Source of the DNA: Nocardia huaxiensis
Lineage (GTDB): Bacteria > Actinomycetota > Actinomycetes > Mycobacteriales > Mycobacteriaceae
Length of the DNA: 64,000 nucleotides
NCBI RefSeq assembly: GCF_013744875.1
Contig: NZ_CP059399.1
Span: forward strand, 6,324,001 to 6,388,000
Direction: 5' to 3'
Shown piece by piece: positions 33,272 through 59,717 of this stretch (the first letter of the stretch is position 1; each line of letters begins with the position of its first letter). A model generated the notes under the pieces. That model did no database searches. It saw only the letters and a list, made by a program, of their open reading frames with translations, and was not told the DNA's origin. The position numbers and the translations under genes were made by a program.

Positions 33272-33425
33272 CAGCACTCACCTGTTACGAGCGGGACCCC
33301 CATTCTGCGAACAGAAGAAGTAGTCATCGTCTCGATCATAGAGCCCCTGCCCGGCCCGCGGCCAGCCGAGGCCAGCACTTCACCGAAACCGGCTGCAGCC
33401 CAGCCGGTTTCGCAATGAGCCCGGG

Positions 33426-33725
33426 TCAGCGCGAACTGTAGGTCAGACAGCGCGCGGCGTGCTCGCCCCGGCCCGGTCCGACCCGGATCTCACCGGCGGA
33501 ACACTCGAGCCCCTGATTGTGCGTGCAATCCGCACGCTGACAGGCCCCGACCATACTGGTGACGGTATCGAGCCCGCCCTTCGTGGACAGGGCGATGAAC
33601 GTCCCGCAGTCCGCCCCGCCATCATGATCGGCAACATTGATCGCGTACGCATGACACCCGTCATGGTTGTACGAGCAGTTGCTGACCGTGCACTCACTGA
33701 CGTGCGGCATTTCCATCGTGGTCAT
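33426..33725 (-). CDS. DUF1540-like cysteine-rich protein
   Basis: 99 residues, ATG preceded by GGAGG at good spacing. Eight cysteines fall in two similar halves, CTVSNCSYNHDGCHAYAI and CQRADCTHNQGLECSAGEI. This resembles tandem DUF1540 metal-binding repeats, so metal binding is inferred; its function is unknown. It is divergent from the TetR gene and shares its upstream region, which carries the palindromic box. Confidence 0.8.
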   Translation of the reverse strand: MTTMEMPHVSECTVSNCSYNHDGCHAYAINVADHDGGADCGTFIALSTKGGLDTVTSMVGACQRADCTHNQGLECSAGEIRVGPGRGEHAARCLTYSSR

Positions 33726-33899
33726 CTACGCCTCCGAGGATTGGCAGTCATCTGCATGCGCACCCCAGCCTAGACCCGCCACCTGCACCGATAGTGTCGA
33801 CACAATCCGTGTGGGCCCATGCCCGCGACGCCCCCGGCTCCTCGGCGAGACGACGCACGACGACCGGGCCGCTGGGCCGTGACCGCTTTCTCGAATAGC

Positions 33900-33925
33900 G
33901 TGTCAACAACGTAGATCTACGTGAC
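33900..33925. promoter_or_regulatory. Putative TetR operator (site 1)
   Basis: GTGTCAACAA followed by the perfect palindrome CGTAGATCTACG (33910-33921; 14 bp including flanking A/T). It lies 41 bp upstream of the TetR start. The same GTGTCAACAA plus an nGTAGnnCTACn palindrome recurs at 35263-35284, which makes an autoregulated TetR box likely. Confidence 0.6.
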
Positions 33926-33965
33926 GAAGCACGGCGGGCATCTTCCGCAGAAGGAGGCACCCGAA

Positions 33966-34694
33966 ATGACCGGCAAGCCGACCAGCCGCATCCGATCCAA
34001 CTCCACCGGCGTCGGCTCCGCCGCAGACGCCCGGCGCGCGGGCCCGATCACCCGGGCGGCGGTGCTGGCGGCGGCGCTGCAGATCGTCGATCGGGACGGG
34101 GTGGACGGGCTGTCGATGCGGCGGCTGGCCGAGGCGGTGCGACGGGATCCGATGATCATCTACCGGCATCTGCCCAATAAGGCCGCGGTGCTGGACGGCG
34201 TCGCCGAGGTCGTGTTCGCGCAGCTGACGGTCGATGCCGAGGATCCGGACTGGATGGCGCAATTGCGCTCGGCCGCAAGGAGTTTCCGGCAGCTCGCGCT
34301 GGATCACCCCCGGGTGGTGCCGCTGCTGGTGACCCGGCCGCTGGCGACGCCGCTGGGCTTGCGCCCGCGAGCGGTACTGCGGCCGCTCGAGGACATCCTG
34401 ACCCTGCTGACGCGTGCCGGGTTCTCCGGACCCGATGCGCTGCACATCTATCGAGCCCTGTTCGGATTCCTGTACGGGCACGTGCTCAACGAGCTGCAGG
34501 AAATCGTGGAGAACCCCGAGGAGACCGACGATCTGCTGCGGCTGGGCCTCTACCGGCTACCTCCCGGGGAATTCCCGCTGCTGCGCGAACTCGCGCCGGT
34601 GCTGGCGGCCTACGACGGCGCGGCCGAGCTCGAACGCGGCCTGGACATCCTGCTGACCAGCCTCGCGGCGAGCTTCCCCCGCAGTAATGGCTGA
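33966..34694 (+). CDS. TetR family transcriptional regulator (TetR_C-type)
   Basis: 242 residues. I chose the ATG at 33966 because AAGGAGG lies just upstream. The N-terminal HTH spans about residues 24-70 (ITRAAVLAAALQIVDRDG...MRRLAEAVRRDPMIIYRHLPNKAAVLDGV). The C-terminal ligand domain resembles the TetR_C class of tetracycline-type repressors. A palindromic box lies upstream, and the same box lies in the next divergent promoter. It is therefore inferred to repress itself and the DUF5994-like genes. Confidence 0.9.
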   Translation: MTGKPTSRIRSNSTGVGSAADARRAGPITRAAVLAAALQIVDRDGVDGLSMRRLAEAVRRDPMIIYRHLPNKAAVLDGVAEVVFAQLTVDAEDPDWMAQLRSAARSFRQLALDHPRVVPLLVTRPLATPLGLRPRAVLRPLEDILTLLTRAGFSGPDALHIYRALFGFLYGHVLNELQEIVENPEETDDLLRLGLYRLPPGEFPLLRELAPVLAAYDGAAELERGLDILLTSLAASFPRSNG

Positions 34695-34727
34695 TCGGGC
34701 AGGTGACCGGCGCAGGACAGCGGCGGC

Positions 34728-35171
34728 TCACGCCCCATCGCCGGCGTGCGCGGCCGGGTCCGGTCGCCGGGACCCGGCAGCCGTCAGGGTGGCGTGCGCG
34801 CTGTCGCGATCGGTGGCCGACGAAATCACCTGCAATACGAGCATGGCTTCGCCGGGACCGATGAGATACATGGTGTTGCCCAGTTCGAAGGCGTGGGCGT
34901 CGAGCAGGACCGAGCGGTCGTCGACGATGATCCGGCGCGGCGCTCGGGACCAGCTCTGCCGGTCGTAGACGACCCGCCACACCGGCCCCAGCCGGGAGGT
35001 GAGCACCGGCAACAGATCCGGCAGTTCGTCGGCCAGGTCCGCGGAGTAGGGCCACCACGCGCCGTCGAGATATCCAGCCGGGCGGCCGCTGGGCTTCAAC
35101 GCCAATCGCGGTGGATACGACGGCCTTTCGCGACTCCGGGTGAGATAGGTGCGAATCCGCATTGCCGCCAT
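34728..35171 (-). CDS. DUF5994-like protein A
   Basis: 147 residues from the ATG at 35171, which has GGGAG upstream; the frame extends to 35237. The core GYLDGAWWPYSADLADELPDLL is shared with the two plus-strand genes to its right. The family is actinobacterial and of unknown function. The gene is divergent from 35417, with the second palindromic box in between, and convergent with the TetR gene. Confidence 0.8.
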   Translation of the reverse strand: MAAMRIRTYLTRSRERPSYPPRLALKPSGRPAGYLDGAWWPYSADLADELPDLLPVLTSRLGPVWRVVYDRQSWSRAPRRIIVDDRSVLLDAHAFELGNTMYLIGPGEAMLVLQVISSATDRDSAHATLTAAGSRRPDPAAHAGDGA

Positions 35172-35262
35172 GGCGGTACTCCCGTCTCGGCCGTCTCGAC
35201 CGGGTTGTCCGACCCCCGGCGACGCCGTGGCGTCCACTTCAGTAGACGCCTCCCCGTGCGGG

Positions 35263-35290
35263 GTGTCAACAATGTAGACCTACAGTCAAT
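35263..35290. promoter_or_regulatory. Putative TetR operator (site 2)
   Basis: GTGTCAACAA followed by TGTAGACCTACA (35273-35284) matches site 1 in its first ten bases and in the GTAG/CTAC half-sites. It sits between the divergent DUF5994-like genes, so one site could control both. Confidence 0.6.
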
Positions 35291-35416
35291 AATCGCGCGG
35301 ACCGGGGCGTATCCTCGGGGTGTCGATGGCACATCGCATCCGGTCGCCGCCAGACCGTTTCGCCATACGATTCTCGGCAAACCCGGCCGTTCGCGGCTGA
35401 GACAGGAGCGTCTTCC

Positions 35417-35956
35417 ATGACGCCGCAGCCAACCCGCACCCGTCGCCCGGACCGGGCCGACCTCGATCGTCCGCGCCGGCACGGCGAACCCACGCCACGA
35501 GTGCTGATGAAACCCGTAGCGCCGAAATCCGGCTACGTCGACGGAGCATGGTGGCCCTACACCGACAATCTCGTCGCCGAACTGCCAGGGTTGCTCACTG
35601 TCCTGGCGGCGCGCCTGCGGCCGGTTATCCAGGTCGCCTACCACCTGGTCGAATGGACAACTCCGGCAGGCGAACTCGTCGTCGACGACCGCTCGGTGCG
35701 ACTGGACTGGCATGGTCACGCCGCCGCGCACACCGTCGCGCTGCTCGGCCCGCTCAACCGCCGGCTCGTGCTGCTGGTGGTACCGCCCGACACCGATCCC
35801 GGCGACGCCTACACCGCGATGACCGCCGCTGCCTCCGCGAACAACTCCTCGACCGCCGACGATCTCCTGCAGATCGGCATCCGGCAACGCCGAGCACGCA
35901 AGCAGCGAGCCGCCGCGGTGCGCCGCTGGGCCGCGCGCACGACATCCCCCAACTGA
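35417..35956 (+). CDS. DUF5994-like protein B
   Basis: 179 residues, with AGGAG eight bases upstream of the ATG. It contains GYVDGAWWPYTDNLVAELPGLL, a VDDRSVRLDW segment parallel to VDDRSVLLDA in protein A, and an Arg-rich C-terminal tail. It begins a plus-strand run of three genes and is likely controlled by site 2. Confidence 0.85.
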   Translation: MTPQPTRTRRPDRADLDRPRRHGEPTPRVLMKPVAPKSGYVDGAWWPYTDNLVAELPGLLTVLAARLRPVIQVAYHLVEWTTPAGELVVDDRSVRLDWHGHAAAHTVALLGPLNRRLVLLVVPPDTDPGDAYTAMTAAASANNSSTADDLLQIGIRQRRARKQRAAAVRRWAARTTSPN

Positions 35957-36031
35957 CCACCGGACACGCCACACCCGTACCCGCCCGCCACGAACCCGAC
36001 TCCGGCTGCCGCGCGCCAGAAGGACCACCCC

Positions 36032-36430
36032 ATGCCCACCCTGCAACCGATCGCCTACGGCCCCCGGCACACCGGCCCGCCGACGCCCCGCCTCACCATG
36101 CGCGAGCCGGGCAGCGCCCCGGGACCGGTCGACGGAGCCTGGTGGCCCCGCACCGGCAACCCGGCCACCGAACTCCGGCAACTCGTCACCGCCCTCGCCG
36201 CACGCCTGGGCCCCATGGCCCGAGTCGGATTCGACTGGATAGCCGCCGATCCCACCCTGCTCGACAGCCACGCCCCCACCGACGCGACCCGCGCCGGCAT
36301 CATGTACCTGTACGGACGCGCCGGCACCCGCCTCGATGTCCTGGTCATCCCCGCGCACACCCGCCCGGCACTGGCCGCGCGGCAAATGCGCTGGGCCTCA
36401 GGCAAACCCTGGAGAACGGGGCGATCATGA
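36032..36430 (+). CDS. DUF5994-like protein C
   Basis: 132 residues, with AAGGA before the ATG. It keeps the VDGAWWPRTGNPATELRQL core but is shorter and more diverged after it. Its stop overlaps the next start (ATGA). It is the third paralogue in the cluster and its function is unknown. Confidence 0.8.
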   Translation: MPTLQPIAYGPRHTGPPTPRLTMREPGSAPGPVDGAWWPRTGNPATELRQLVTALAARLGPMARVGFDWIAADPTLLDSHAPTDATRAGIMYLYGRAGTRLDVLVIPAHTRPALAARQMRWASGKPWRTGRS

Positions 36431-36756
36431 CCACCACCCACGAACGCCCGGCCACTCCCCTGCCGTTCGCCGACGACCCCGCCATCACGCGATTCCTCGC
36501 ACTCGGGGACAGCACCGTCCGCTGCCTGCTCGACGCGCTGCTGCGCCTGAACGAACTACGCGCCGCCCTCGACGGCCCAGCGACCACCGACGCGGACACC
36601 CGAGCCGCGCACAGCGACCTCGCCGGACTCCTCAGCCGACTCGAAACACAGCTCCGCACAACCAATCTGGCAATGCTCGACATCACCAGCGACTGGCCGA
36701 TGACGCTCCCCGACACCAAACCGAAGAGAGTCTCCCCCGTTGATCCGCACCCATAG
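36427..36756 (+). CDS. Hypothetical protein, coupled to DUF5994-like gene
   Basis: 109 residues, ATG overlapping the previous stop by four bases, so translational coupling is likely. A helical middle (LLDALLRLNELRAALDG... LAGLLSRLETQLRTTNLAML) suggests a small coiled or helical protein. No family was recognised. Confidence 0.75.
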   Translation: MTTTHERPATPLPFADDPAITRFLALGDSTVRCLLDALLRLNELRAALDGPATTDADTRAAHSDLAGLLSRLETQLRTTNLAMLDITSDWPMTLPDTKPKRVSPVDPHP

Positions 36757-36765
36757 AAAGCCGAA

Positions 36766-36813
36766 AGGGGCTTACCCGATCCAGCGAACGAACGCTGATT
36801 CGAATAAGCCCCT
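36766..36813. terminator. Hairpin between convergent gene and tRNA
   Basis: Arms aggggctta (36766-36774) and taagcccct (36805-36813), with a smaller nested stem between them, lie between the end of the plus-strand gene and the 3' end of minus-strand tRNA-Val. It probably terminates from both sides. Confidence 0.5.
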
Positions 36814-36815
36814 CA

Positions 36816-36890
36816 TGGTGGTTCTAGCTGGGTTCGAACCAGCGACCCCTCGCGTGTGAGGCGAGTGCTCTCCCGCTGAGCTATAGAACC
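36816..36890 (-). tRNA. tRNA-Val(CAC)
   Basis: The acceptor stem GGTTCTA pairs with TAGAACC. The anticodon stem-loop is CTCGC-CTCACAC-GCGAG with anticodon CAC. A GGTTCGAACC T-arm is present, and CCA is encoded (36816-36818). Confidence 0.96.
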
Positions 36891-37234
36891 GTACGGGGTG
36901 TCCGTCCTGGCGTTTTCTGCCGCTCCGAACGAGAAAGAACATTACACATCGGATCGGCGTCGCACCAAATCGCGTGGACAGCGGCGTAAAAGCGGGGTTT
37001 GACGGGCGTATGTGCGGTGGCGGGCGTGTCTTCACCTGGGAGCCATCCGGCATTGGCCGGAGAGGGGTGGGATGGGCAGGAGTGGCGCGTGGCGGGCAGG
37101 TCGGCACGCAGCGGAACTACACCCCTGTAGTTCACATTTACCCCCATCTACCTGGCGATTTGGTTTGCGCGTCGATAGTCGGCTAATGTTCTCTCTCGTC
37201 ACCGGGACAGCGAAAACGCCCCGGCCGACGAAAT
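36891..37234. other. Promoter region between divergent tRNA genes
   Basis: A 344-bp gap with no convincing gene. It must hold promoters for tRNA-Val(CAC) leftwards and the Gly-Cys-Val cluster rightwards. It contains a perfect inverted repeat GAACTACA-CCCC-TGTAGTTC at 37114-37133 of unknown role. Confidence 0.6.
37160..37189 (+). promoter_or_regulatory. Possible promoter of the tRNA Gly-Cys-Val cluster
   Basis: TTGGTT (37160-37165), an 18-bp spacer and TAATGT (37184-37189) lie 45 bp upstream of tRNA-Gly. This is a sigma-70-like arrangement read by eye. Confidence 0.35.
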
Positions 37235-37307
37235 GCGGATGTAGCGCAGCTGGTAGCGCATCACCTTGCCAAGGTGAGGGTCGCGGGTTCGAATCCCGTC
37301 ATCCGCT
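37235..37307 (+). tRNA. tRNA-Gly(GCC)
   Basis: 73 bases. GCGGATG pairs with the 3' ATCCGC region, the anticodon loop is TTGCCAA (GCC), and the T-arm is GGGTTCGAATCCC. CCA is not encoded. Confidence 0.96.
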
Positions 37308-37330
37308 CGAGAGGCCAACACGGCCTGCTT

Positions 37331-37401
37331 GGCGGTGTGGCCGAGTGGTGAGGCAACGGCCTGCAAAGCCGTGCACACGGGTTCGATTCCCGTCGCCGCC
37401 T
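37331..37401 (+). tRNA. tRNA-Cys(GCA)
   Basis: 71 bases. GGCGGTG pairs with CGCCGCC, the anticodon loop is CTGCAAA (GCA), and the T-arm is GGGTTCGATTCCC. Confidence 0.96.
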
Positions 37402-37430
37402 CTTCTCTTTGAAGAGACAAAGTTAGACTC

Positions 37431-37505
37431 GCGCGATTAGCTCAGCGGGAGAGCGCTTCCCTGACACGGAAGAGGTCACTGGTTCAATCCCAGTATCGCG
37501 CACCA
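37431..37505 (+). tRNA. tRNA-Val(GAC), integration target
   Basis: Acceptor GCGCGAT/ATCGCGC, anticodon loop CTGACAC (GAC), T-arm CTGGTTCAATCCCAG, with CCA encoded at 37503-37505. Its 3' 28 bases plus one further base recur at 59689-59717 as attR. The element therefore integrated at this gene and left a complete tRNA. Confidence 0.97.
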
Positions 37506-37506
37506 T
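37478..37506 (+). repeat. attL, 29-bp direct repeat
   Basis: From ACTGGTTCAATCC through GCGCACCAT, this is identical to 59689-59717. It covers the T-arm, acceptor 3' strand and CCA of tRNA-Val(GAC). Confidence 0.93.
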
Positions 37507-37520
37507 AGAAAGACCAGATC

Positions 37521-37547
37521 AGGCCCGGTTTTCGCCGGGCCTTTCTG
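37521..37547 (+). terminator. Terminator of tRNA cluster
   Basis: The stem aggcccgg/ccgggcct is followed by TTTCT. An almost identical hairpin lies just beyond attR (59732-59764), so each att copy has its own terminator. Confidence 0.7.
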
Positions 37548-37552
37548 CTGTC

Positions 37553-37599
37553 GTGAACTCAATGTGAACTGACGTCGGTGAACTCAACCTGAACTGAGG
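37553..37599. repeat. Arm-type repeats near attL
   Basis: Four copies of TGAACT fall in 47 bp. The last two form gtgaactcaacctgaactga (37578-37597), which recurs inverted, with two differences, at 59509-59528. Probable integrase arm-binding sites. Confidence 0.6.
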
Positions 37600-37648
37600 T
37601 GCACATGCCAGGTACGCCACCTCGCTGACGTTCAGGCCCACGCCGCAC

Positions 37649-38287
37649 TCAGACCCGGATCAGTGACCGATCCGGGTCGTACAGTGCCCGATGCCACTTC
37701 ACTACAGAGCATTCCGCGACCCCGATTGGCGTGAGCGCAGCGAGGTGATGCTCCACCACCGCTTTACGTACCGCAGGATCGTCGGTGACGCTATAGCCTT
37801 CTCCGCAATGAGCGCATCCCCCACTCAGCGGGGCATGACCGTGCTCAGCCTCGCCGGACCGCGTTCTGATCGTGACTACCAACTCTGCGGCGACCCGAGA
37901 CTCGTCGAGAAGGTGCTTCGCCAGTCTCCATGCACTTTCAGTGGTTACCAAGACCACGAAGTGAAAGGCGTCGGAACCGCTGGCGGTCGGACTGATACCG
38001 GCAACGAAGGCCGACTCCTCACCGCACGAAGTACACGATCGGCGAACACCGAAGGCACGCAGCCAGATCCGACCAACGACGTTCCCCGGCGGCTTGTCTA
38101 TTCGAACAGGCGGAGGTGGCTGCTCGGTGTGATAGTGAAAGCCCGTTCTCCGGGCCATGTCTTCACACCGCCCGCATGTCACCGTCCATCCACCAGGTCC
38201 GCCACCGAGCAGACCCCGCCCGTCGGTAACCATCGCGAAGCACATGACGCACCTCTTGCCCCAGCGCGCCCGCCCCGTCCCCGACAT
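37649..38287 (-). CDS. Multi-zinc-ribbon hypothetical protein
   Basis: 212 residues from the ATG at 38287, chosen because GGGGGAG lies eight bases upstream; the open frame runs to 38452. Four CxxC pairs occur at about C13/C16, C38/C41, C85/C88 and C158/C161, suggesting two or more structural zinc sites. No enzymatic motif is seen. It is the first gene inside attL. Its function is unknown. Confidence 0.7.
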   Translation of the reverse strand: MSGTGRARWGKRCVMCFAMVTDGRGLLGGGPGGWTVTCGRCEDMARRTGFHYHTEQPPPPVRIDKPPGNVVGRIWLRAFGVRRSCTSCGEESAFVAGISPTASGSDAFHFVVLVTTESAWRLAKHLLDESRVAAELVVTIRTRSGEAEHGHAPLSGGCAHCGEGYSVTDDPAVRKAVVEHHLAALTPIGVAECSVVKWHRALYDPDRSLIRV

Positions 38288-38670
38288 AGAACCAACTCCC
38301 CCTAGGTAGAAGGACTCCAGTACCTCCAGCATCCAACAAGAGGCCGACAATCTAGCCGAAAGAAGCGGCGGCACGGCCGGCGGCTCAGGCCGTTCCGCGG
38401 CCGCTGGCGTGTAAAACCAGTTCCACGATGAACCTACCGATCTCTCTGTCATCTGCCTGTTCCGAACGAAGGATCACTACAGGTCAGTAGCATTCGGCGG
38501 GTTGCTCTCGGGACGCAACAAGGCACGCCGCGACTCCCCTGGACACATGCCTGCCCTACATTTGCCCCACGACAGCGAATCCGGTGCCCCACATCTCCAT
38601 GAGTAGGCGGCCTGATGAGTGGACCACGACAACACTCCTTCTACCGTCTCGCTGTAGCATGCGAGTCTAA
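38288..38670. other. Intergenic region without recognised gene
   Basis: 383 bp between the zinc-ribbon gene and the RT operon, both minus strand. Composition shifts from GC-rich on the left to AT-rich near 38640, at the edge of the RT module. It should contain the promoter of the zinc-ribbon gene and the 3' end of the RT operon transcript. I see no strong hairpin. Confidence 0.5.
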
Positions 38671-39267
38671 CTACTGGCGCGGCAAATGATCATCCACTGA
38701 TCTAATAAATACCCTACAAGCATTGATACAGAGGCTCAGAGATTCCGCTGTTACAATAATTCGCCCATCTGAGATCTTCACCTTAGATTGCAGAATCTTC
38801 GCGTCCTTTCCACTGGAGAGTTGTTTCTTAGTAATCACGCCAAGGCCATGCGCAATTGAATTTCGGACTTCTATCGCACGATCAAAATCAGCCCACCCTG
38901 AACACTTATTCAGAGCGAATCCATGATGATTCTCAAAGCATTTCTTTCTATCATTCCAGCTTGATGATGCTTTCTCCTGAACCTCTGCCGTCAGGTTTCG
39001 AAAGAACGTTTCGAGAGTTTCAACACGTTTGTCAAACAGAGTTTCGGAAACTGTATCAACGTAAGCCTCGGCAATACTGACGATACGCAGGTATTGCCCC
39101 TGCGATCGCACCTGCCTTGCGTCAAACCTCGCCCACTTAGCCGCAGACGTTCCACACCACCGCCCCCCTCTGACAACTGGAAGCGATGCAAAGTCTGCGA
39201 CCGTCAGATTTAAGAGACTAAGGGCTTCTTCGGTAATATCCCACGGGACTCTGCGCAATAATGTCAT
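38671..39267 (-). CDS. HEPN-like protein, partner of reverse transcriptase
   Basis: 198 residues. Its ATG overlaps the RT stop (ATGA), so the two are translationally coupled. Residues 135-140 read RNSIAH, an exact Rx4H motif as in HEPN ribonucleases, within a helical context (WADFDRAIEVRNSIAHGLGVI). The N-terminal half has a WDITEEALSLLN segment of unknown role. Composition is AT-rich relative to the host, as in the RT gene. The inferred role is effector, RNase or other, of an RT-based antiphage or abortive-infection pair. The HEPN assignment rests on one motif plus predicted helices. Confidence 0.65.
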   Translation of the reverse strand: MTLLRRVPWDITEEALSLLNLTVADFASLPVVRGGRWCGTSAAKWARFDARQVRSQGQYLRIVSIAEAYVDTVSETLFDKRVETLETFFRNLTAEVQEKASSSWNDRKKCFENHHGFALNKCSGWADFDRAIEVRNSIAHGLGVITKKQLSSGKDAKILQSKVKISDGRIIVTAESLSLCINACRVFIRSVDDHLPRQ

Positions 39268-40823
39268 CGGACCAGAATGGCTTTCGTGATTTCGTTCGTT
39301 TCCCGCAATGCAGCTACCGCCTTCTCTTCTTGCTGCGTAGCGCCAGATGAGAGGTGGTCACTAACGCTTGCCAAATAAATAGCCTTCACAGCACCAGGGG
39401 AGCTTGCCGCTTCCTCCACGGCCTCATAAACCGCTACTCGCGACGCAGCCGCAAGTGCACGGAAAGCAAAAGCCCTTAGTGGCTCCTTTCCGGAGTAGAA
39501 GCACTGTTGAATCCATTCTGACCGCGCCTCATTATTGGTTGACGTTGCACTAGAGAAAAGTTCGAGAGAGCGGTAACATTCGATCAGCCATACTTTTTGC
39601 CAGGTGTTCAGCGACACTGATTCAACAATCAAGTCAATAACTTCTCCTGCTCGTTCGGCATTTCCACTCGCGCCAACTGCGATGAGATACTTTGCCAGAT
39701 CCGGAGTTAAAGATGGAACAAATCCCATAAGAAGAGGCGCAGACTCGAGCGCTGCCGTATTTCCTTCGTTTGCCAAAGCGCTCAAAGCACGTCGTATTCG
39801 ACGCACCCCGTCACGATCTATCTCTCGAAGATCTATACCCCGCGCTTGTCCGGAAATATTGGCCGACCTAATTACAGCGGCGGCAGAGTCCGAATCCTCA
39901 CTGAAGTCATCCTGATAGTCGCCAGCAATAGCCTCGACGTCGTCCATCGAGATAGTTCCGCCCTCAGGTAGGCTATCTATGCCGTATGTATTCAGTACAT
40001 ATGTTGAGAAATGAAACGTGAAGGTCTTCAATTCGTTGATCGCCAAACCCACGGATCTAGCAGCGCTATCTAACGCCTCAATCGCAGCAATTGATTCAGA
40101 GAAGCTTCGGCACGCTATTCTAAAGTCGTCATTGAATCGCCAAACTGCAAATCCTTGCCGAAGAAGATTGCGCTCAACCTGGTCAACGTACACTTCAGAC
40201 AGCCGATCGGATGCGTCGTACAACTGCGGAAGCCCCGACGGTCGACCCGTAACCTCAGAAAGTAGATCAACCAAATGCGACACGATATCGTAGTTGGCAC
40301 CCTGCGCGATTAGTTCGTCAGCAAGTACCGCATGATCGATATATTGATAGAATGAAGTCAAGTCCGAGGATACTACATACTTAATCTCCGAGTTTATAAT
40401 CGAAAATAGAATCTGATCAAACTCCGAAAGCTGCCTATCTTTTTCAATCTGTCGAGCATACACAACTGGCGCTTCAACAAATTCAATATACTTCGAGACA
40501 CTACGATCCAAACTGGGGAGGCCGTGAACAGCAGCCTCAACGAGAGCATCGTATAGCACCTGCTCTTCAATTCCCCAAAAGGCTACTGGCCGAACTCCAT
40601 GGCCTGGCTTTCGGGCGGTTAGTTCACGTTCCGTTGATACTTCAATCCCCCTGCGGAAACGGTTCTCAAGATAGGATACGACACGCTTGATAGTCGCATT
40701 GTTCTTTACAAGTTGATCCCAGCCGGGCTGGGAAGGAACGAGGTTGCGTTCTGTCTGCGAAACGCGAACAAGCGCATCCGCCAACTTCAGCTGCCTAAGA
40801 ACATCGTTTGTGATTGGACGCAC
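39264..40823 (-). CDS. Abi/UG-type reverse transcriptase
   Basis: 519 residues, GTG start. RT motifs are visible: GVRPVAFWGIEEQVLYDAL (residues 76-94), motif A SSDLTSFYQYIDH with D154, GLPQ (197-200), motif C RFNDDF with catalytic D232/D233, and GLAINELKTF (259-268). After about residue 330 the protein is alpha-helical and repetitive, HEAT-like (RRIRRALSALANEG... LRAFAFRALAAASR). There is no maturase, retron-type or DGR context. An RT with a helical C-terminus and a HEPN-like neighbour recalls the AbiA/UG class of defence RTs. The low GC content and the position just inside attL mark it as transferred cargo. The exact UG class cannot be set without a phylogeny. Confidence 0.85.
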   Translation of the reverse strand: MRPITNDVLRQLKLADALVRVSQTERNLVPSQPGWDQLVKNNATIKRVVSYLENRFRRGIEVSTERELTARKPGHGVRPVAFWGIEEQVLYDALVEAAVHGLPSLDRSVSKYIEFVEAPVVYARQIEKDRQLSEFDQILFSIINSEIKYVVSSDLTSFYQYIDHAVLADELIAQGANYDIVSHLVDLLSEVTGRPSGLPQLYDASDRLSEVYVDQVERNLLRQGFAVWRFNDDFRIACRSFSESIAAIEALDSAARSVGLAINELKTFTFHFSTYVLNTYGIDSLPEGGTISMDDVEAIAGDYQDDFSEDSDSAAAVIRSANISGQARGIDLREIDRDGVRRIRRALSALANEGNTAALESAPLLMGFVPSLTPDLAKYLIAVGASGNAERAGEVIDLIVESVSLNTWQKVWLIECYRSLELFSSATSTNNEARSEWIQQCFYSGKEPLRAFAFRALAAASRVAVYEAVEEAASSPGAVKAIYLASVSDHLSSGATQQEEKAVAALRETNEITKAILVR

Positions 40824-41125
40824 ACCCGGAATCTACCTGTTCAACTGAGTTCTGCAAAACCCTGCGGGCTCATCCGTTCGTGGTCACGGCAGAGGCAAGT
40901 CCAGCTGCGGAGACTCATGTGCCTCATTGTGCGCCAACACCGATAATCAGGACAAAGATCCCATAGCAGATTGCAGCTCGAATCCTGCTGAAGACACACA
41001 CCGACCTGCATGTAGTGTTCTGCATACCCTCCAGATACGTACCAGTCCGGTAGACGCCGTCAACGCCATGCGAAGCGTTTGTAGCATCGCGGCAACCTTC
41101 GAGCACCTGTCAATCTCTTGGGCAT
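40824..41125. other. Intergenic region upstream of RT gene
   Basis: 302 bp between the RT start and the end of the SprT-like gene. No protein-coding gene is seen. It should contain the RT operon promoter. Several defence RTs use an adjacent noncoding RNA, so a minus-strand ncRNA is possible here, but I find no strong stem-loop to support it. Confidence 0.5.
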
Positions 41126-41758
41126 CTATAACCCCTCGAAGGACATCTGGCACAGCCCGCAGATGATCGGACCGGCTGAAAAGGTGCTTTCCGAAACACG
41201 GATCTTGCGGCCACAGTCGCATTCTGCCGTCATGCCGTTGTTGTTGGACTTGCGGCCGCCGCGGCGGTTGGGTTCGTGCCGGCGGTAGGCGACCAGGGCG
41301 AACGCCAGTTCCTCCATCTCGTCCCGGTAGGTTTGGCGAGTCTGGTCCGGCACGGTGGTGACCGACCATCCGAGTTTGGGGTCTTGGGTGAGGGTGAGTC
41401 CGAGTTCGGTTCCGAGGGCGCGGAATCGTTCATTGTGCCAGCGGCCTTGGCGGCTGGTGTCCTTGATCCCGCGCACCGCGGCGACACCGTGGGCGGCCTC
41501 GTGCAGCAGGGTGCCGAGCACGTCGGCGGCACCGCGTTGCAGCCCTTCGCCGCCGATGAACAGTTCGTGGAGTTCATATTCCCCGCGGACCCATCGGTTG
41601 GCGGCGAAGTGCCCGAGGGTGAGTTCACTACCTCCGGTCGACCCCGCGCCGACGGTCAGCACAACGTCGGGAACGTCGAGATGGTGGGATCGGATTGCGG
41701 CCCAGGTGTTTTCCAGGGCGGCGACGAGTAGTCCGGTGATGGTGTCGGAGTCGGTCAT
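41126..41758 (-). CDS. SprT-like metalloprotease domain protein
   Basis: 210 residues, GGAG five bases before the ATG. It has HEAAH at residues 86-90 with a likely third ligand in GRWHNERF (H108). A C-terminal zinc ribbon reads CDCGRKIRV...IICGLC. The layout fits SprT/Spartan-like proteins often carried by actinobacterial mobile elements. A DNA-protein crosslink or anti-restriction role is conceivable but unproven. Two identical palindromes lie 27 and 62 bp upstream, so it is probably tightly regulated. Confidence 0.85.
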   Translation of the reverse strand: MTDSDTITGLLVAALENTWAAIRSHHLDVPDVVLTVGAGSTGGSELTLGHFAANRWVRGEYELHELFIGGEGLQRGAADVLGTLLHEAAHGVAAVRGIKDTSRQGRWHNERFRALGTELGLTLTQDPKLGWSVTTVPDQTRQTYRDEMEELAFALVAYRRHEPNRRGGRKSNNNGMTAECDCGRKIRVSESTFSAGPIICGLCQMSFEGL

Positions 41759-41784
41759 GATCTCCGGTTCCTTCCGTGAGACCT

Positions 41785-41835
41785 TGACACGTACGTGTCA
41801 ACCTGCGCCCCAGGGGTTTTGACACGTACGTGTCA
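41785..41835. promoter_or_regulatory. Paired perfect palindromes upstream of SprT-like gene
   Basis: TGACACGTACGTGTCA occurs twice, at 41785-41800 and 41820-41835, with centres 35 bp apart. Each is a perfect 16-bp palindrome and the flanking T/A pairs extend the symmetry. A dimeric repressor binding both sites is the simplest reading. No cognate regulator is identified in the window. Confidence 0.75.
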
Positions 41836-41862
41836 ATGAAGGTGAGGTCCCAGAAAGAGCGT

Positions 41863-41974
41863 GGAATCCCTGGGCGCGCGCCGCGCTCTGTCCGGGGCAG
41901 GCCCTGCGCCTGCCCTCACCGCCTGGCCGCCGCGCCGCAGAGGCTCCCGGACAAGCACGAATTTCCGAACACGC
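41863..41974. repeat. Left half of long imperfect palindrome split by IS copy A
   Basis: The outer arm 41863-41885 and the inner arm 41950-41968 match the reverse complement of 43392-43414 (21/23) and 43348-43366 (18/19) on the other side of the IS. Before insertion they would form one long hairpin. The inner arm shares AAGCACGAATTTCC with the repeat at 44061-44130. Confidence 0.7.
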
Positions 41975-42000
41975 TGAATCGTCCCGGTGTGTCCGGAGAC

Positions 42001-42774
42001 TTATTGGTGTGACAGCTCAGCGAGTTGCTGGGCTGGTTGTTGAGCGTAGTAGGCGGCTTCCAGTTCGGCAGGTGGCATGTCACCGCAATTGCGGTAGAGG
42101 CGACGGTGATTGAACCAGTCGACCCATTCGGCGGTGGCCAACTCGACGTGATCGACCGTGCGCCACGGGCCTCGAGGTTTGATCAGTTCGGTCTTGTAGA
42201 GACCGTTGATCGTCTCGGCGAGTGCGTTGTCATAAGAGGAGCCGACCGCCCCTACAGAGGGTTGGATCCCGGCCTCGGCGAGGCGTTCGGTGAACGCGAT
42301 CGAGGTATATTGAGATCCCCTATCATTGTGGTGGACAACATCTTTCACATCCCATCCATCGCGGTTCCGAGTCCAGATGGCATGCTCGATCGCGTCGAGC
42401 ACCAACCCGGTCGTCATCGACGTGGAGGTGCGCCAGCCGATGATCCGACGGGCGTAGGCGTCCACGACGAACGCGACATATACCCATCCCGACCACGTCG
42501 AGACGTAGGTGAAATCGGCTACCCACAACCGATTCGGTGCCGCAGGAGAGAACTTGCGTCGCACCAGATCCGCCGACCGCGGCGCGGCCGGGTCCGCGAT
42601 CGTGGTCCGTTTGACCTTGCCGCGCACCGCACCTCGTAATCCGAGACCACGCATCAGCCGTTCCACCCGGCAACGGGCGACGCCGATGCCCTCGCGGTTG
42701 AGCTGCAGCCACACTTTCCGGGCCCCGTAGACCCGGTAGTTCTCGTTGTGCACGCGCGTGATCTGCACATTCAA
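42001..42774 (-). CDS. IS3-family transposase OrfB (copy A)
   Basis: 257 residues from the first ATG, but the -1 frame stays open upstream into OrfA, as expected for OrfAB made by frameshifting. The rve/DDE core has VADFTYVS, HHNDRGSQYTS and DNALAETINGLYKTE, giving the D, D and E. The C-terminus WFNHRRLYRNCGDMPPAE is typical of IS3 transposases. Confidence 0.95.
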   Translation of the reverse strand: MNVQITRVHNENYRVYGARKVWLQLNREGIGVARCRVERLMRGLGLRGAVRGKVKRTTIADPAAPRSADLVRRKFSPAAPNRLWVADFTYVSTWSGWVYVAFVVDAYARRIIGWRTSTSMTTGLVLDAIEHAIWTRNRDGWDVKDVVHHNDRGSQYTSIAFTERLAEAGIQPSVGAVGSSYDNALAETINGLYKTELIKPRGPWRTVDHVELATAEWVDWFNHRRLYRNCGDMPPAELEAAYYAQQPAQQLAELSHQ

Positions 42775-42944
42775 TTCCTGGTCACGCTGTTCGCGCTGGG
42801 TCGGGGTCCGGTTGCGATGTTCGTAGTAGGTCGATGGGGCGATCTTGACGCCGAGCTCGGTGAGCGCGGCGCAGATCGACTCGACACCCCATCGCAGGCC
42901 GCCGTGTTCGCGACGGCCTTGATGTTCGCTGATGAACCTGACGG

Positions 42945-43274
42945 TCAGCGTTGGGGCCGGTCCAGTTCGGCCGCGAAGAAAACCGACGCGGCTTTCAGAA
43001 TTCCGTTGGCGCGCTTGAGTTCTGCGTTCTCACGCCGCAACCGCTTCAACTCCGCGGACTCATCGGTGCTCACCCCGGGACGGGTTCCACCGTCGATCTG
43101 GCCCTGACGCACCCACTTGCGGACCGTTTCCGGGGTCCCCACGCCGAGCAGATCGGCGACCGCTTTCATCGCGGCCCACTCCGACTCGTGTTGATCCTGG
43201 ATCTCCACGAACATCCGGATCGCTCGCTCACGCAGCTCGACCGGGTACTTCTTCCTCGACGACACGACTTCCAT
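42945..43274 (-). CDS. IS3-family transposase OrfA (copy A)
   Basis: 109 residues. The N-terminal HTH_Tnp_1-type domain (YPVELRERAIRMFVEIQ... TVRKWVRQGQ) is followed by a leucine-zipper-like ELKRLRRENAELKRAN. OrfB is in the -1 frame. Confidence 0.95.
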   Translation of the reverse strand: MEVVSSRKKYPVELRERAIRMFVEIQDQHESEWAAMKAVADLLGVGTPETVRKWVRQGQIDGGTRPGVSTDESAELKRLRRENAELKRANGILKAASVFFAAELDRPQR

Positions 43275-43317
43275 CCTTCACAGATGACGAAGTCCCTGGA
43301 CTCACCGGGGCGATTCA

Positions 43318-43414
43318 CGCTGCCGCACACCCACTCCGGGCCGACACTCGGAAAATCGTGCTTGTCTCGCGGAGGGGCGGCACGGCTATCCTGCGGCGCG
43401 CGCCCAGGGAATCC
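43318..43414. repeat. Right half of long imperfect palindrome
   Basis: It contains the inner arm 43348-43366 and outer arm 43392-43414, which pair with 41950-41968 and 41863-41885 across IS copy A. No gene is seen here. Confidence 0.65.
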
Positions 43415-43679
43415 CCACCCACGCAACCACGCACTCACCCCGGCACCCGCCACCCGTCACACCGGACTCAGCCACCTACACGCAACCCGGACCACCGGAC
43501 GCCACCACCGCGCCAGCGCACCGGACCCCACCATCTACCCGACCGCCACGAACGCACTCCCCGTCACCCGACGTGACCACTCACCCCACCGCAACGTTCA
43601 TTACCCAATGTAACCACTTCCCCCTAACCAACTTCTCCACCTACTTCCGCCCCGCCTCCCTTCCCTCCTTACTGCTCCT
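43415..43679. other. G-poor, C/A-rich strand-skewed segment
   Basis: The plus strand is almost entirely C, A and T with few G, starting with CAC/ACC-like triplets and becoming C/T-rich near 43620-43680. It has no credible gene. Such skew directly before a strong hairpin could mark a replication or transfer origin or a long structured transcript. This is speculative. Confidence 0.4.
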
Positions 43680-43757
43680 CCCGAACAGATCACCAAATAC
43701 ACACACTCACTACTGAAAAATCTTCCATTGATGTGTGTATTTGGTGATCTGTTCGGG
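43680..43757. repeat. Perfect 26-bp inverted repeat
   Basis: Arms 43680-43705 and 43732-43757 are exact reverse complements (cccgaacagatcaccaaat... / ...atttggtgatctgttcggg), with a 26-base AT-rich loop. The outer bases extend the stem with one mismatch. There is no T-run, so it is not an ordinary terminator. Candidate origin or regulatory hairpin of the element. Confidence 0.75.
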
Positions 43758-44656
43758 GGGAGCCCATCACCGCAGCTCAGGAGGCGGGGCGGCGTGCGAC
43801 ACGCGTGCACAATGAGGTCATCGACCTGCCCAGCAGAACACACCCGAATCCGCGAAGTTCCACGCAGAACACAGGTCTCGCACTCGACGGTGCCACGTTT
43901 GACCCGCCCGGAACACGGGTTCTACCTCTGGTTCATTACGACACGCCGGGCCGAAAATGCCTGCGGTTCAACGGCCATCCCCGGTAGATGGTCGACTTCG
44001 GAACGCCTGTCGCGTCCGGTCGGGGTGGGGGCGCGTGATTGTGTCAGCGCCGCCCCTCACGCCAAGCACGAATTTCCCCCCACCGGTCCGGCACTCCCCC
44101 GACTGTCCGGCATCGGGAAATTCGTCCTCGGCGCGAGCCTCTCGGGCGGCGCTGCGCGGACAGCGATACCGGGCAGGACGAGCCTGCCCGCGGAGTCCAC
44201 GCACCCCCACCCCAACCTCGCGCAAACCGCTGGCGTCAACCGCATCCGCAGCCCGGCTACGGCTTTCAGCCCGGACCATCCCGATCGTGAGCCAGGCCGC
44301 CGAACACACGCCGTTGGCCCCGAAGCGCTCGGGCCGATCACCGGAGCGATCAACCTGCGGATTGACCGTCGCGCCGGAACATGAGCGAACTGGGGAATAG
44401 ATCGCGCAGATGTGGCCAGTACCCCAAACCGCGGTGCCGACCGATGAATGAACACACGCACGACGATTCCACCACATCGGGTCCAATAATATGAAGAATG
44501 CAATTCTACGGCAGCATATTAAATGACCCTAGAGATTTTATAGCACTGGTGATCGTAAATAACTTTTCGACGATGCCGATCAGATCGCCGAACCTATCGG
44601 TATATCGTGAGATCGGGCAATATGCCCCACTCAGGACCATTGAAATAGGGAAATCC
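43758..44656. other. Gene-poor region with second palindromic repeat
   Basis: About 900 bp with no gene I can support; open frames here have no credible start or composition. It holds the palindrome at 44061-44130. From about 44480 it becomes AT-rich ahead of the secreted-protein gene, where a promoter is expected. Confidence 0.5.
44061..44130. repeat. Second copy of palindromic repeat family
   Basis: Arms ccaagcacgaatttccc (44061-44077) and gggaaattcgtcctcgg (44114-44130) match 14/17 as inverted repeats. The stem motif and the flanking GCGCCGC...GAGGCT sequence resemble the palindrome split by IS copy A. Confidence 0.6.
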
Positions 44657-45109
44657 ATGATCATCAACTTCATACGTCGCACCATCGTTCCAATCGGAAC
44701 GTCTCTGATCGCAATTGCGGCGGCAACAACCATTGCCGCGCCAGCTAACGCCAGCGAACGACGTGAAATCGTCTGCAATGGCAATGCGTTGATGCCGAAA
44801 TCCATCGACACCGTTCATATCCAATACGGCTTCACCGTCGACTGCACCGGTAGGCCGGAAATATTGGCCGCCAACACCACGCTGAAGAAACTACAGGATG
44901 GAAAAGTCACCAACCATTCCTCGCGGCCAAACGAGGTCATCACCCTGGACGCCAGCAATCGGGCCGAGGTATGGTACACCGCGTCCTGTTCGTTGACAAG
45001 CCAGCAACTCGGATTCTTCTACACCGAGGTCACTCTCGGTGCCATCGGCGGAGGCGGCGCGGACATACGCGAGATAACCCCGAGCAACTCTATGCCGTTG
45101 TATTGCTGA
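44657..45109 (+). CDS. Small secreted protein
   Basis: 150 residues from the ATG at 44657; the frame extends upstream to 44498. A signal peptide (MIINFIRRTIVPIGTSLIAI... ending near ANAS) leads to a mature domain with four cysteines (IVCNGN, VDCTG, ASCSL, final C), probably two disulfides. The coding and upstream sequence is more AT-rich than the host average. No family was recognised. Confidence 0.7.
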   Translation: MIINFIRRTIVPIGTSLIAIAAATTIAAPANASERREIVCNGNALMPKSIDTVHIQYGFTVDCTGRPEILAANTTLKKLQDGKVTNHSSRPNEVITLDASNRAEVWYTASCSLTSQQLGFFYTEVTLGAIGGGGADIREITPSNSMPLYC

Positions 45110-45196
45110 TCGGCGACGATTGCGCTAGACAGGCAATGCCCCGGCAGATCTCGGCGTAGTCCTTCCGATGGGACTGCGGTTTGCGATGCTATCCCC

Positions 45197-45703
45197 ATGG
45201 ATGGAAGTGGCCGTGAGATGCATCCGGCCGTCGCAGCCGCGCTCTCCGTCATGCCGGAGAACGACGGGAGAGCCCGGCTGGTTGGTTCTGTCATCCGGGA
45301 GGAAGACGGTGCGGTCGCGGTGGTCGTACACACCGCCCGGTGGCGCTACGTCGTGGTCGTTCTGCGGGACGGTGACCGATGGATCACACCGACTCTGATC
45401 ATCGGCGAAGGGATTCCGACCCAGCCCCGACTAGCAACCAACTTTCCCACCATGCCGTTGGCGAAACAGTCGGCAGATATCCGTAACAGCCTCCACAACG
45501 ATTTCGTGTGGCACGCGGTCGTCGGGACCGCGGCATTGGATGCGGACTCGGTGCGCGTAGTGACGACACTCGAATCTCGCAAACCCGAAATCGGTGACGA
45601 CGGTCTGGTACTGGCGTTGGTCCGTGCGCAGCACGGTGAACGACCGCTCGTCACCGTCACGACCCGGGACGGACGCGAAGAGAGTAACTACCAGGAGGAT
45701 TAG
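45197..45703 (+). CDS. Hypothetical protein
   Basis: 168 residues. The first half is beta-rich (GSVIREEDGAVAVVVHTARWRYVVVVLRDGDRW). The second half has DADSVRVVTTLES and LVTVTTRDGREE. There is no signal peptide or catalytic motif. The start is uncertain: no clear ribosome site is seen, and an internal ATG 21 bases in is possible. Function is unknown. Confidence 0.6.
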   Translation: MDGSGREMHPAVAAALSVMPENDGRARLVGSVIREEDGAVAVVVHTARWRYVVVVLRDGDRWITPTLIIGEGIPTQPRLATNFPTMPLAKQSADIRNSLHNDFVWHAVVGTAALDADSVRVVTTLESRKPEIGDDGLVLALVRAQHGERPLVTVTTRDGREESNYQED

Positions 45704-45840
45704 GCCGACAGCGACACACCCCTCCTTCACCGTCTACGAGACTATGACCGACCGTGCCAGGTTCACCGAACCGGTTGCCGCGCAAGCGGTCCTGAGTAGG
45801 CTCCCGATCAGCGTGATCATCTGCTCAAGGGGATGAAGCC

Positions 45841-46812
45841 ATGACCATGACGCGCACCCTCACCACCCTCGCCGTCCTGCCGGTCCTGGCCGCGGCCGGA
45901 CAAGGCATCGCGGTCGCCGCACCGGGACAACCCGGCCTGGCGGTCCCCGGCGACGGACAACCCGGACTCAGCCAAGAACCGGCACCGCCCGCGGCACCGA
46001 GCCTGGCCGACTACATCCCGGACCCACCGACACCACCGGCCCGGCCACGACCGAACCAGCAGAACTCCCCGAACACCGACACCCTCGTACAGCCACCGCA
46101 GACCACCGAGCCCGAGCCCGGCGAAGAACCACAGCCGGTGCCGGAAGCCGCGCCGGCCGATCCGAACACGCTGCGCGCAGGCAACACCACGGTGGCGGTC
46201 CCGGACTGGATCGATACGAAGACCCGCGACAAGGCACAGGCGTATCTGAACTATGCGGAATGGCAAATCGCCGCGGGCTATGACGCGCTGGGATTCCCCC
46301 GCGAGGAATCGGATCGCCGGGCGGCCTCTACTCTCGCCGGTGGCATCGTGGGCGCACTCACCGGCGTGGAACTGGTAGGGATACCGGCCGTGGCCATCGG
46401 CTGTCTCGGCGGGTCCGTGGTCGGCGGGCTCGCCGGTGCGGCCATCGGCGCCACGGCGGCCGGAGTCGAAATGCCCTTCGGCGCCGCCCTCGGGATACCC
46501 CTGGGCTGCCTGGCAGGAGGCGCGGTGGGCATGGTGCCGGGCATCGCCCTGGGCGGCATGGCCGGAACCCTCATCGGCGGGGCCGTCGCCGGAGCGCTCG
46601 GGAGCGGGGTGGATGTGACGCAGCCCGATACACCCCCGCCGTTGCTGGAAGTCTCCACCGCGCACGAGCTCACGCCTGCGGACTCGAATCCGGTCGGGCA
46701 GCCGATTGCCGACGCGCTAGCCGTGGTCGGAGCGCAGGTGGACACGGCCGTGACCTCCTTGCGCGAGGCGCTGGCGACGATGCCGCCGCTGATCCCGAGA
46801 GTTCCCTCTTGA
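45841..46812 (+). CDS. Secreted Pro-rich/glycine-zipper protein
   Basis: 323 residues. A signal peptide (MTMTRTLTTLAVLPVLAAAG) precedes a Pro-rich linker (residues about 25-115). A middle segment follows (RDKAQAYLNYAEWQIAAGYD), then a long Gly/Ala/Val stretch of glycine-zipper type (GGIVGALTGVELVGIP... GGMAGTLIGGAVAGALG) and a short soluble tail. It is probably cell-envelope associated. It resembles the smaller protein at 28897 in design. Function is unknown. Confidence 0.75.
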   Translation: MTMTRTLTTLAVLPVLAAAGQGIAVAAPGQPGLAVPGDGQPGLSQEPAPPAAPSLADYIPDPPTPPARPRPNQQNSPNTDTLVQPPQTTEPEPGEEPQPVPEAAPADPNTLRAGNTTVAVPDWIDTKTRDKAQAYLNYAEWQIAAGYDALGFPREESDRRAASTLAGGIVGALTGVELVGIPAVAIGCLGGSVVGGLAGAAIGATAAGVEMPFGAALGIPLGCLAGGAVGMVPGIALGGMAGTLIGGAVAGALGSGVDVTQPDTPPPLLEVSTAHELTPADSNPVGQPIADALAVVGAQVDTAVTSLREALATMPPLIPRVPS

Positions 46813-52981: not shown

Positions 52982-53142
52982 CGTGTCCACCCCCTGTCCA
53001 CCTCGGTGTCCTCGGTGTCCGCCGGGGTGTCCGGGGTGGCCGTCTGCTCGGGGTGGGTCTGTCCGGGGTGGTCATCGCGGTCACGACGGTGGCCGCTCTG
53101 GGTGGCCACGTAGGCGGCCATGGGGCGTAGGTAGTCGGTCAT
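52978..53142 (-). CDS. Small overlapping ORF between tra and spd genes
   Basis: 54 residues: MTDYLRPMAAYVATQSGHRRD at the start (first residues shown), then an acidic, Thr/Pro/Asp-rich tail. Its ATG overlaps the TraB stop (ATGA) and its TGA overlaps the next ATG (ATGA), the same coupling used along this operon. That supports real translation despite its size. No family was recognised. Confidence 0.6.
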   Translation of the reverse strand: MTDYLRPMAAYVATQSGHRRDRDDHPGQTHPEQTATPDTPADTEDTEVDRGWTR

Positions 53143-56656: not shown

Positions 56657-56812
56657 GGCAATCGCTCCTTCCTGTGAACTCTCGGGACGAAACCCGTTGA
56701 GATACATGGAATCTCGCGACAGCCTGGGGGTAGTAGGATGCAAAACGGCACGTGGGCGTACGCCACAGAGCCTCGTTACACCCCCTCGTACGCCCCCGTG
56801 CTATCCGTCCCA

Positions 56813-56826: not shown

Positions 56827-56832
56827 CGAGGT

Positions 56833-57970: not shown

Positions 57971-58744
57971 TTGAATGTGCAGATCACGCGCGTGCACAAC
58001 GAGAACTACCGGGTCTACGGGGCCCGGAAAGTGTGGCTGCAGCTCAACCGCGAGGGCATCGGCGTCGCCCGTTGCCGGGTGGAACGGCTGATGCGTGGTC
58101 TCGGATTACGAGGTGCGGTGCGCGGCAAGGTCAAACGGACCACGATCGCGGACCCGGCCGCGCCGCGGTCGGCGGATCTGGTGCGACGCAAGTTCTCTCC
58201 TGCGGCACCGAATCGGTTGTGGGTAGCCGATTTCACCTACGTCTCGACGTGGTCGGGATGGGTATATGTCGCGTTCGTCGTGGACGCCTACGCCCGTCGG
58301 ATCATCGGCTGGCGCACCTCCACGTCGATGACGACCGGGTTGGTGCTCGACGCGATCGAGCATGCCATCTGGACTCGGAACCGCGATGGATGGGATGTGA
58401 AAGATGTTGTCCACCACAATGATAGGGGATCTCAATATACCTCGATCGCGTTCACCGAACGCCTCGCCGAGGCCGGGATCCAACCCTCTGTAGGGGCGGT
58501 CGGCTCCTCTTATGACAACGCACTCGCCGAGACGATCAACGGTCTCTACAAGACCGAACTGATCAAACCTCGAGGCCCGTGGCGCACGGTCGATCACGTC
58601 GAGTTGGCCACCGCCGAATGGGTCGACTGGTTCAATCACCGTCGCCTCTACCGCAATTGCGGTGACATGCCACCTGCCGAACTGGAAGCCGCCTACTACG
58701 CTCAACAACCAGCCCAGCAACTCGCTGAGCTGTCACACCAATAA
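57971..58744 (+). CDS. IS3-family transposase OrfB (copy B)
   Basis: 257 residues from the first ATG, identical to OrfB of copy A. The -1 frame is open upstream at least to 57782, giving the usual LTVRFISEHQGRR start of IS3 OrfB within an OrfAB fusion. The DDE residues are present. Confidence 0.95.
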   Translation: MNVQITRVHNENYRVYGARKVWLQLNREGIGVARCRVERLMRGLGLRGAVRGKVKRTTIADPAAPRSADLVRRKFSPAAPNRLWVADFTYVSTWSGWVYVAFVVDAYARRIIGWRTSTSMTTGLVLDAIEHAIWTRNRDGWDVKDVVHHNDRGSQYTSIAFTERLAEAGIQPSVGAVGSSYDNALAETINGLYKTELIKPRGPWRTVDHVELATAEWVDWFNHRRLYRNCGDMPPAELEAAYYAQQPAQQLAELSHQ

Positions 58745-58770
58745 GTCTCCGGACACACCGGGACGATTCA

Positions 58771-59474
58771 TAGATTCTCTTCCGCGCGAGGTCGATATCC
58801 TTCCGGCGCAACTCTGCGAGTTCACCGAATCGCAGGTGGCACCAAGTGGCTAGCAACGCCATCAGCTGGAACCTCGGCGGCAAGGTCGTCACGATCACTT
58901 CAAGCTCCTCCAGCGTGGCCGGCCGAATGACCTTCGCCCGTTGCACGCTGCCAGCGCCCTTGATGCGGCAAGGATTTCGGTGGACAGGCACCGCCTTGTC
59001 CGCTAGGGCGCTGTTGAAGATTGTCGAGCAAAGACCGTAGACACGAGCCCGGAGCGTGGGCGTCTGTGGGTTCAGCTTCCCGTACCACTGCCTAATGTCT
59101 GATTCGTCGATAGAACCGATCGGGTAGTCCCCCAAGACCGGCAAGATGTGGCCGTCGAGCCAGTCTTGGTAATCCTCCCCCGTCCGGTCCGCGAGATCGC
59201 GCTCTTTCATGAACCTTTCGGCATACTCCCCGAATGTCAGCTTGACGTCCTCGGGCAACTCTGTGCCCGGCGGCTGCCACGCCTTCCGAATGATGTCCGC
59301 CTGCACTACGGAGAGATATGCTCGCGCGTCCTGCTGCGTGAGGAAGGTTGTCGGAGCCTTGTAGCGACGGCCGTCCGGCCCGTAGTACTGCGCACGAACG
59401 CGTCCGCTGGGAAGTACGTCGACCGAACCGAACGTACCCGGCGTCCTGTCCTTGCGCCCCTTGCCGCGAACCAT
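58771..59474 (-). pseudogene. int: Tyrosine integrase, C-terminus lost at IS copy B
   Basis: 234 native codons are left. The N-terminal arm-binding domain (about 12-70), the SAM-like core-binding domain (about 78-160, FGEYAERFMKERDLADRT) and the start of the catalytic domain remain. The first catalytic arginine is in LRFGELAELRRKDID (Arg215). The frame then enters the IS and runs on for 46 unrelated residues. The HxxR and nucleophilic Tyr are missing and I do not find them elsewhere in the window. A normal member would be about 380-400 residues. It lies next to attR, as expected for the element's integrase. Confidence 0.92.
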
Positions 59475-59688: not shown

Positions 59689-59717
59689 ACTGGTTCAATC
59701 CCAGTATCGCGCACCAT
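59689..59717 (+). repeat. attR, 29-bp direct repeat
   Basis: Identical to 37478-37506. Only the 3' end of tRNA-Val is present here, so this copy is not a tRNA gene. Confidence 0.93.

Follow-up and report, generated by a model that had tools for sequence, protein, structure and literature searches.

A stretch of 64,000 nucleotides from the Nocardia huaxiensis genome (contig NZ_CP059399.1, positions 6,324,001 to 6,388,000), here called the window, carries a reverse transcriptase (RT) gene followed on the same strand by a gene for a small HEPN-type partner. The two open reading frames (ORFs) share an ATGA overlap, and the GC content is 0.49–0.56 in the three 1-kb bins of positions 38,001–41,000 compared with 0.69–0.73 in the first 22 bins of the window. 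An initial annotation, made without database searches, had described an RT with intact FNDD, GLPQ and motif A Asp, a long helical C-terminal region, an overlapping partner of 198 residues with an exact Rx4H motif, a composition AT-rich relative to the host, and a position in an integrated element near attL. All of these observations were borne out by the ORF coordinates, homologue alignments, structural models and repeats presented here. The features of the pair are:

39264..40823, reverse strand: RT ORF, 519 residues, GTG start
39978..40805, reverse strand: RT domain, residues ~7–282 (VIA-align range on group II intron, diversity-generating retroelement (DGR) and DRT9 RTs)
40125..40136, reverse strand: FNDD catalytic motif, residues 230–233 (N231, D232 and D233 unchanged across all 47 aligned homologues)
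39915..39917, reverse strand: Y303, in the linker between the RT and helical domains, a candidate DNA-priming tyrosine
39264..39893, reverse strand: predicted helical C-terminal domain, residues ~311–519 (structural model; alignments to αRep enzymes)
38671..39267, reverse strand: partner ORF (RTasHEPN), 198 residues, ATG start (PADLOC-DB 2.0 match; Pfam match under its cut-off; structural model)
38848..38865, reverse strand: HEPN Rx4H motif, R135-N-S-I-A-H140 (R, N, A and H unchanged across all 42 aligned homologues)

Comparison of the RT with PADLOC-DB 2.0 resulted in RT_UG22 as the best model (428.6 bits, E 8.7e-129), with the runner-up UG21 at 106.3 bits and the generic "RT" model, in which the class is not visible, at 47.6 bits. 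The match is near full-length, covering RT residues 5–517 and profile positions 2–473 of 476, and the enzyme is assigned to the UG22 class on these profile margins. Pfam RVT_1 was also matched above its cut-off (32.2 bits, cut-off 29.6), and the nearest database relative is a Nocardia protein with 67% identity. Identification as a group II intron maturase was rejected, since the group_II_RT_mat equivalog scored 44.3 bits, far short of its cut-off of 300, despite strong similarity in the RT core. No Rfam retron match was obtained at E ≤ 1 in positions 33000–46000, and neither the RT nor its partner matched NCBIfam above any curated cut-off.

The catalytic motifs of the RT comprise D154 of motif A, GLPQ at residues 197–200 and the FNDD motif, and D154, G197, P199, Q200, N231, D232 and D233 are identical in all 47 aligned homologues. 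Conservation of the catalytic aspartates indicates that polymerization is under selection. In the AlphaFold2 model (mean predicted local distance difference test score (pLDDT) of 89.5) the C terminus is nearly all helix, and alignments to DRT6, DRT4, AbiA, AbiK and UG15 extend to residues 516–519. The model aligns over almost its full length with these αRep-bearing enzymes and with Abi-P2, in agreement with the HEAT-like helical repeats that follow the RT domain in Class 1 enzymes, and the C-terminal domain is probably an αRep solenoid as judged from the model. Y303 lies in a flexible linker with pLDDT values <50; all 47 close homologues retain it, and it aligns identically in 22 of the 25 locus RTs compared (see below). 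Two further RTs (loci L019 and L031) have a tyrosine nearby by eye and one (L023) has no clear equivalent, making Y303 a candidate priming residue only.

The sole PADLOC-DB 2.0 match of the partner is RTasHEPN (148.5 bits, E 3.5e-44), and Pfam HEPN_RiboL-PSP scored 19.2 bits, under its cut-off of 28.4. The nearest database relative is again from Nocardia (70% identity). Residues R135, N136, A139, H140 and G143 are identical in all 42 aligned homologues, indicating that the RNSIAH motif is not a chance match. The protein is probably RNA-cutting. The best solved-structure matches of the partner model (pLDDT 90.3) are mainly HEPN-type proteins, HEPN-MNT toxins included, with moderate scores, which lends moderate support to a HEPN fold. 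AbiA is absent among the 50 structure matches listed for this model, which has no bearing either way.

The pairing was followed across 26 distinct RT loci, namely the window, six loci from a species-wide scan (L001–L006), two on Rhodococcus plasmids (L013 and L014) and 17 from genome searches (L015–L023, L026 and L027–L033), with duplicates (L007–L012, L024 and L025) left out. RT_UG22 is the best model for the RT in 26/26 loci, in L033 for a 326-residue piece. A HEPN gene follows the RT on the same strand in 24 of the 26, where its stop-to-stop frame overlaps the RT frame or starts within a few bases of its end. All 24 HEPN proteins carry Rx4H, and RTasHEPN was matched in each of the 13 of these loci scanned with PADLOC. 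The HEPN profile used for the locus search includes L001–L006, which were also found by tblastn with the window HEPN. RT and HEPN distances are correlated with r = 0.927 over 23 pairs, a value reached by none of 2000 label permutations; L033, with its RT in two frames, and L016 and L023, which lack the HEPN gene, were left out of this comparison.

The two exceptions differ in character. In L016 (1471–2733, reverse strand) the UG22 RT is shortened beside an ORF that reads as transposase-like, and no HEPN gene is present. Its relative L017 has near-identical upstream DNA and a longer RT frame; the two are not independent because the upstream sequence is 97% identical over 430 nucleotides (nt). 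The RT of L023 (745–2490, reverse strand) is an outlier (RT_UG22, 335.7 bits) whose long linker has no clear priming tyrosine. The ORFs on either side read as folC-like and ndk-like, no HEPN gene was found in the locus, and the RT possibly represents a different or repurposed lineage. In L033 the RT is split over two frames and the HEPN frame is open, an arrangement that would be unexpected if the HEPN protein were freely toxic without the RT, unless it reflects a sequencing error.

The unit is rare around the Rhodococcus genome used as a search center, occurring in at least 10 of 397 genomes of its order, at least 2 of 396 of its phylum and at least 9 of 401 of its family, and in at least 7 of 298 genomes in the order of a Micromonospora center. 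The center genome is counted each time and the sets overlap, and the counts are lower bounds because at most three candidates per genome (at most five in the Micromonospora order) were scored. The actinobacterial range is partly by design, as 17 of the 26 loci come from the order, phylum and family of one Rhodococcus genome. All six loci of the species-wide scan bear actinobacterial names, and one protein match (P0026) is named Gemmatimonadaceae. Eight plasmid records contain an RT match, including the two Rhodococcus plasmids in the locus set; the phage records gave no match, and of 23 stretches of viral contigs that matched the search pattern none encoded a relative. Among eight neighboring proteins scanned from four loci, four matched defense models, three next to L005 (the R, S and M proteins of type I restriction) and one next to L003 (an AAA ATPase); no defense model was matched by the remaining four (two from L002 and one each from L001 and L005). 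Integrase genes adjoin the pair in L005 and L003.

In the window, the pair lies in an integrative element defined by the following features:

37431-37505: tRNA-Val
37478..37506: attL-like repeat of 29 nt at the tRNA-Val 3' end, exact direct repeat
59689..59717: attR-like repeat of 29 nt, exact
58632..59474, reverse strand: N-terminal piece of an integrase, adjoining the right repeat (Phage_int_SAM_3, 32.7 bits, cut-off 22.6)

The exact duplication of the tRNA-Val 3' end over 29 nt delimits an element of ~22.2 kb (37478–59717). The gene pair begins ~1.2 kb inside the left repeat and is cargo close to the left end of the element. The integrase frame terminates within an IS3-family transposase ORF (57971–58744), the translation of which is identical to that of the IS3-family ORF at 42001–42774, and the element is possibly immobilized.

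For the two window proteins, the PADLOC scores of RT_UG22 and RTasHEPN, respectively, exceed those of all other models by a wide margin; together these two make up a candidate among the defense-associated RTs (DRTs) in that database. The gene order and strand are the same in 24 of the 26 loci, and no feature separating the window pair from this candidate was found. The pair therefore belongs, by profile matches, to a catalogued, little-studied candidate defense class, of which the RT and HEPN described here are a further member. The initial annotation had proposed an RT-based defense pair that was not recognized as a described system. The first part stands as a candidate defense RT with a conserved HEPN-type partner, the best class model being a UG class and not that of a group II intron, retron or DGR enzyme, and the best structural matches of the partner being mainly HEPN-type, at moderate scores. 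The claim of novelty was set aside, because PADLOC-DB 2.0 already holds models for both genes. Our literature search found no experiment on UG22, although most subscription papers were outside its reach; within the literature searched "RTasHEPN" did not occur and "PADLOC" did not occur with "UG22", and the main text of the myRT paper does not mention UG22.

Among known systems, AbiA resembles the pair in combining an RT, a helical solenoid and a HEPN domain, in its case within a single functional enzyme, and the two RT structures align over 383 residues. On the AbiA side the alignment spans 0–477 and ends where the fused HEPN domain starts. In contrast to AbiA, the HEPN protein is encoded here by a separate gene and has R-x4-H in place of the R-x6-H reported for AbiA, and AbiA is not among the 25 of 50 PADLOC matches listed for the window RT. 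By analogy the pair may work like a split AbiA, without being classed as AbiA. The folds of DRT6, DRT4, UG15, AbiK and Abi-P2 align with the UG22 RT over 392–434 residues at only 9–13% identity, and none of these is known to have a HEPN partner. HEPN-MNT toxins and Csm6 are also among the closest known systems. The Type IX retron Kva2 (RT, msDNA, winged helix and HEPN) likewise encodes its RT and a distinct HEPN RNase within a single operon and involves RT-made DNA; a preprint describes the RT product as keeping the HEPN tRNase in check until the DNA is bound by a phage protein. Kva2 differs in its retron RT, its noncoding RNA (ncRNA) and msDNA and its winged-helix protein, none of which was found at the UG22 pair. 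The literature on Class 1 enzymes further describes RTs with a HEAT-like domain that need no nucleic-acid template and the priming of DNA by AbiK on its own tyrosine, and treats what the DNA of Class 1 defense RTs is for as an open question.

The reading we prefer, with a probability of roughly one half, is that the two genes act together against phage as a UG22-class RT with its RT-associated HEPN, carried as integrative-element cargo, with untemplated, self-attached DNA controlling a HEPN ribonuclease. The UG22 RT would synthesize DNA that is templated by no nucleic acid and stays attached to the enzyme, possibly at Y303, and the HEPN protein would be held by the resulting RT-DNA particle. 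Should a phage interfere with this particle or its DNA, a HEPN dimer would be freed or activated and would then cut host RNA and stop the infection. In its layout the unit would resemble an AbiA split in two, with the HEPN acting as a freestanding ribonuclease effector like that of the HEPN retron. What the analysis shows is the class assignment by profile, the regular linkage of the two genes, their correlated divergence, catalytic residues conserved in each protein and an RT model that matches αRep-bearing enzymes of the Class 1 type along its length; by sequence alone, the nearest solved relatives of the RT point elsewhere, to group II, Cas and DRT9 RTs. A more tentative proposal, which we consider possible but doubtful, is that the pair is an RNA-free counterpart of the HEPN retron, with the untemplated DNA covalently linked to the UG22 RT serving as both sensor and leash for the separate HEPN ribonuclease, such that phage proteins or nucleases touching the DNA would release RNA cleavage. 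If true, the DNA that Class 1 enzymes synthesize without a template, as yet unexplained, would act directly as a trigger. Separate genes for the RT and the likely RNase mean that either component can be deleted, mutated or exchanged to probe control of a ribonuclease by the DNA product, which the fused AbiA does not cleanly permit.

The HEPN protein could instead be a structural subunit that dimerizes the RT and enables polymerization, without cutting RNA, leaving the DNA made by the RT as the effector. Such a HEPN domain is reported for AbiA, required for dimerization and polymerase activity and showing no RNase activity; the alignment of the UG22 RT to exactly the pre-HEPN part of AbiA, the tight linkage and the correlated divergence would all fit a fixed complex. 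We nevertheless regard this role as unlikely, as all 42 homologues and all 24 HEPN loci retain the R and H of Rx4H, which a scaffold need not do, the AbiA spacing is x6 and not x4, and a sequence search of the PDB with the HEPN profile found no AbiA chain. In a toxin-antitoxin arrangement, the HEPN toxin would be neutralized by the RT to stabilize the mobile element, with no direct sensing of phage. The location in an integrative element, the translational overlap and the HEPN-MNT toxins among the best solved matches of the partner are compatible with this. However, the catalytic aspartates of the RT (47/47) imply selection on polymerization, and HEPN-MNT toxins use a tyrosine two residues after the motif histidine, a position occupied by leucine in the window partner and by tyrosine in just 3 of the 42 homologues. 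This arrangement is improbable in our view.

That the RT copies a dedicated ncRNA template, like the Class 2 systems DRT2, DRT9 and DRT10, also seems improbable, if marginally less so than a toxin-antitoxin role. DRT9 is among the closest solved sequences to the RT, and the window has a gap of 302 nt between the RT and the upstream SprT-like ORF. Against this, the integrase gene in L005 ends 28 nt before the RT, and only a tRNA reached the Rfam gathering score in positions 33000–46000 of the window. When flanks of 400 nt (19 upstream and 16 downstream, L027–L033 excluded) were compared all against all, no stretch common to several divergent loci was found, which is weak evidence for the absence of a shared ncRNA because the comparison had no positive control. 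The upstream matches were limited to the close kin L016 and L017, to 37 nt spanning the start codon in L013 and L014, and to weak, out-of-register matches (E 0.003–0.009) between L003 and L015 (two) and between L015 and L021; downstream, only L013 and L014 matched. Relative to mononucleotide shuffles (50 each), the flanks of the window fold no better than the shuffled sequences (z of +1.8 and +1.1), whereas the downstream flanks of L004, L015 and L014 fold well below them (z of -4.1, -3.5 and -3.2, respectively) and may be terminators. A milder effect in the same direction is seen downstream of L002 (z -2.1) and upstream of L001 (z -2.65).

The ORF directly upstream of the RT in the window (41126–41758, reverse strand) reads as a SprT-like metallopeptidase, with a Pfam score of 16.6 bits under the cut-off of 25.6. 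Neither this ORF nor the one downstream of the pair (37649–38452) was retained as a third partner, as neither gave a tblastn match at E ≤ 1e-3 in L001–L014. An M48 metalloprotease is annotated upstream of the pair on the plasmid of L014, with no homology to the SprT-like ORF detectable by tblastn between the loci. Elsewhere in the element, a 692-residue ORF (53139–55217) without a Pfam match reads like an FtsK-type ATPase, and a creatininase-family ORF (165.2 bits) lies at the right end on the forward strand (56752–57369).
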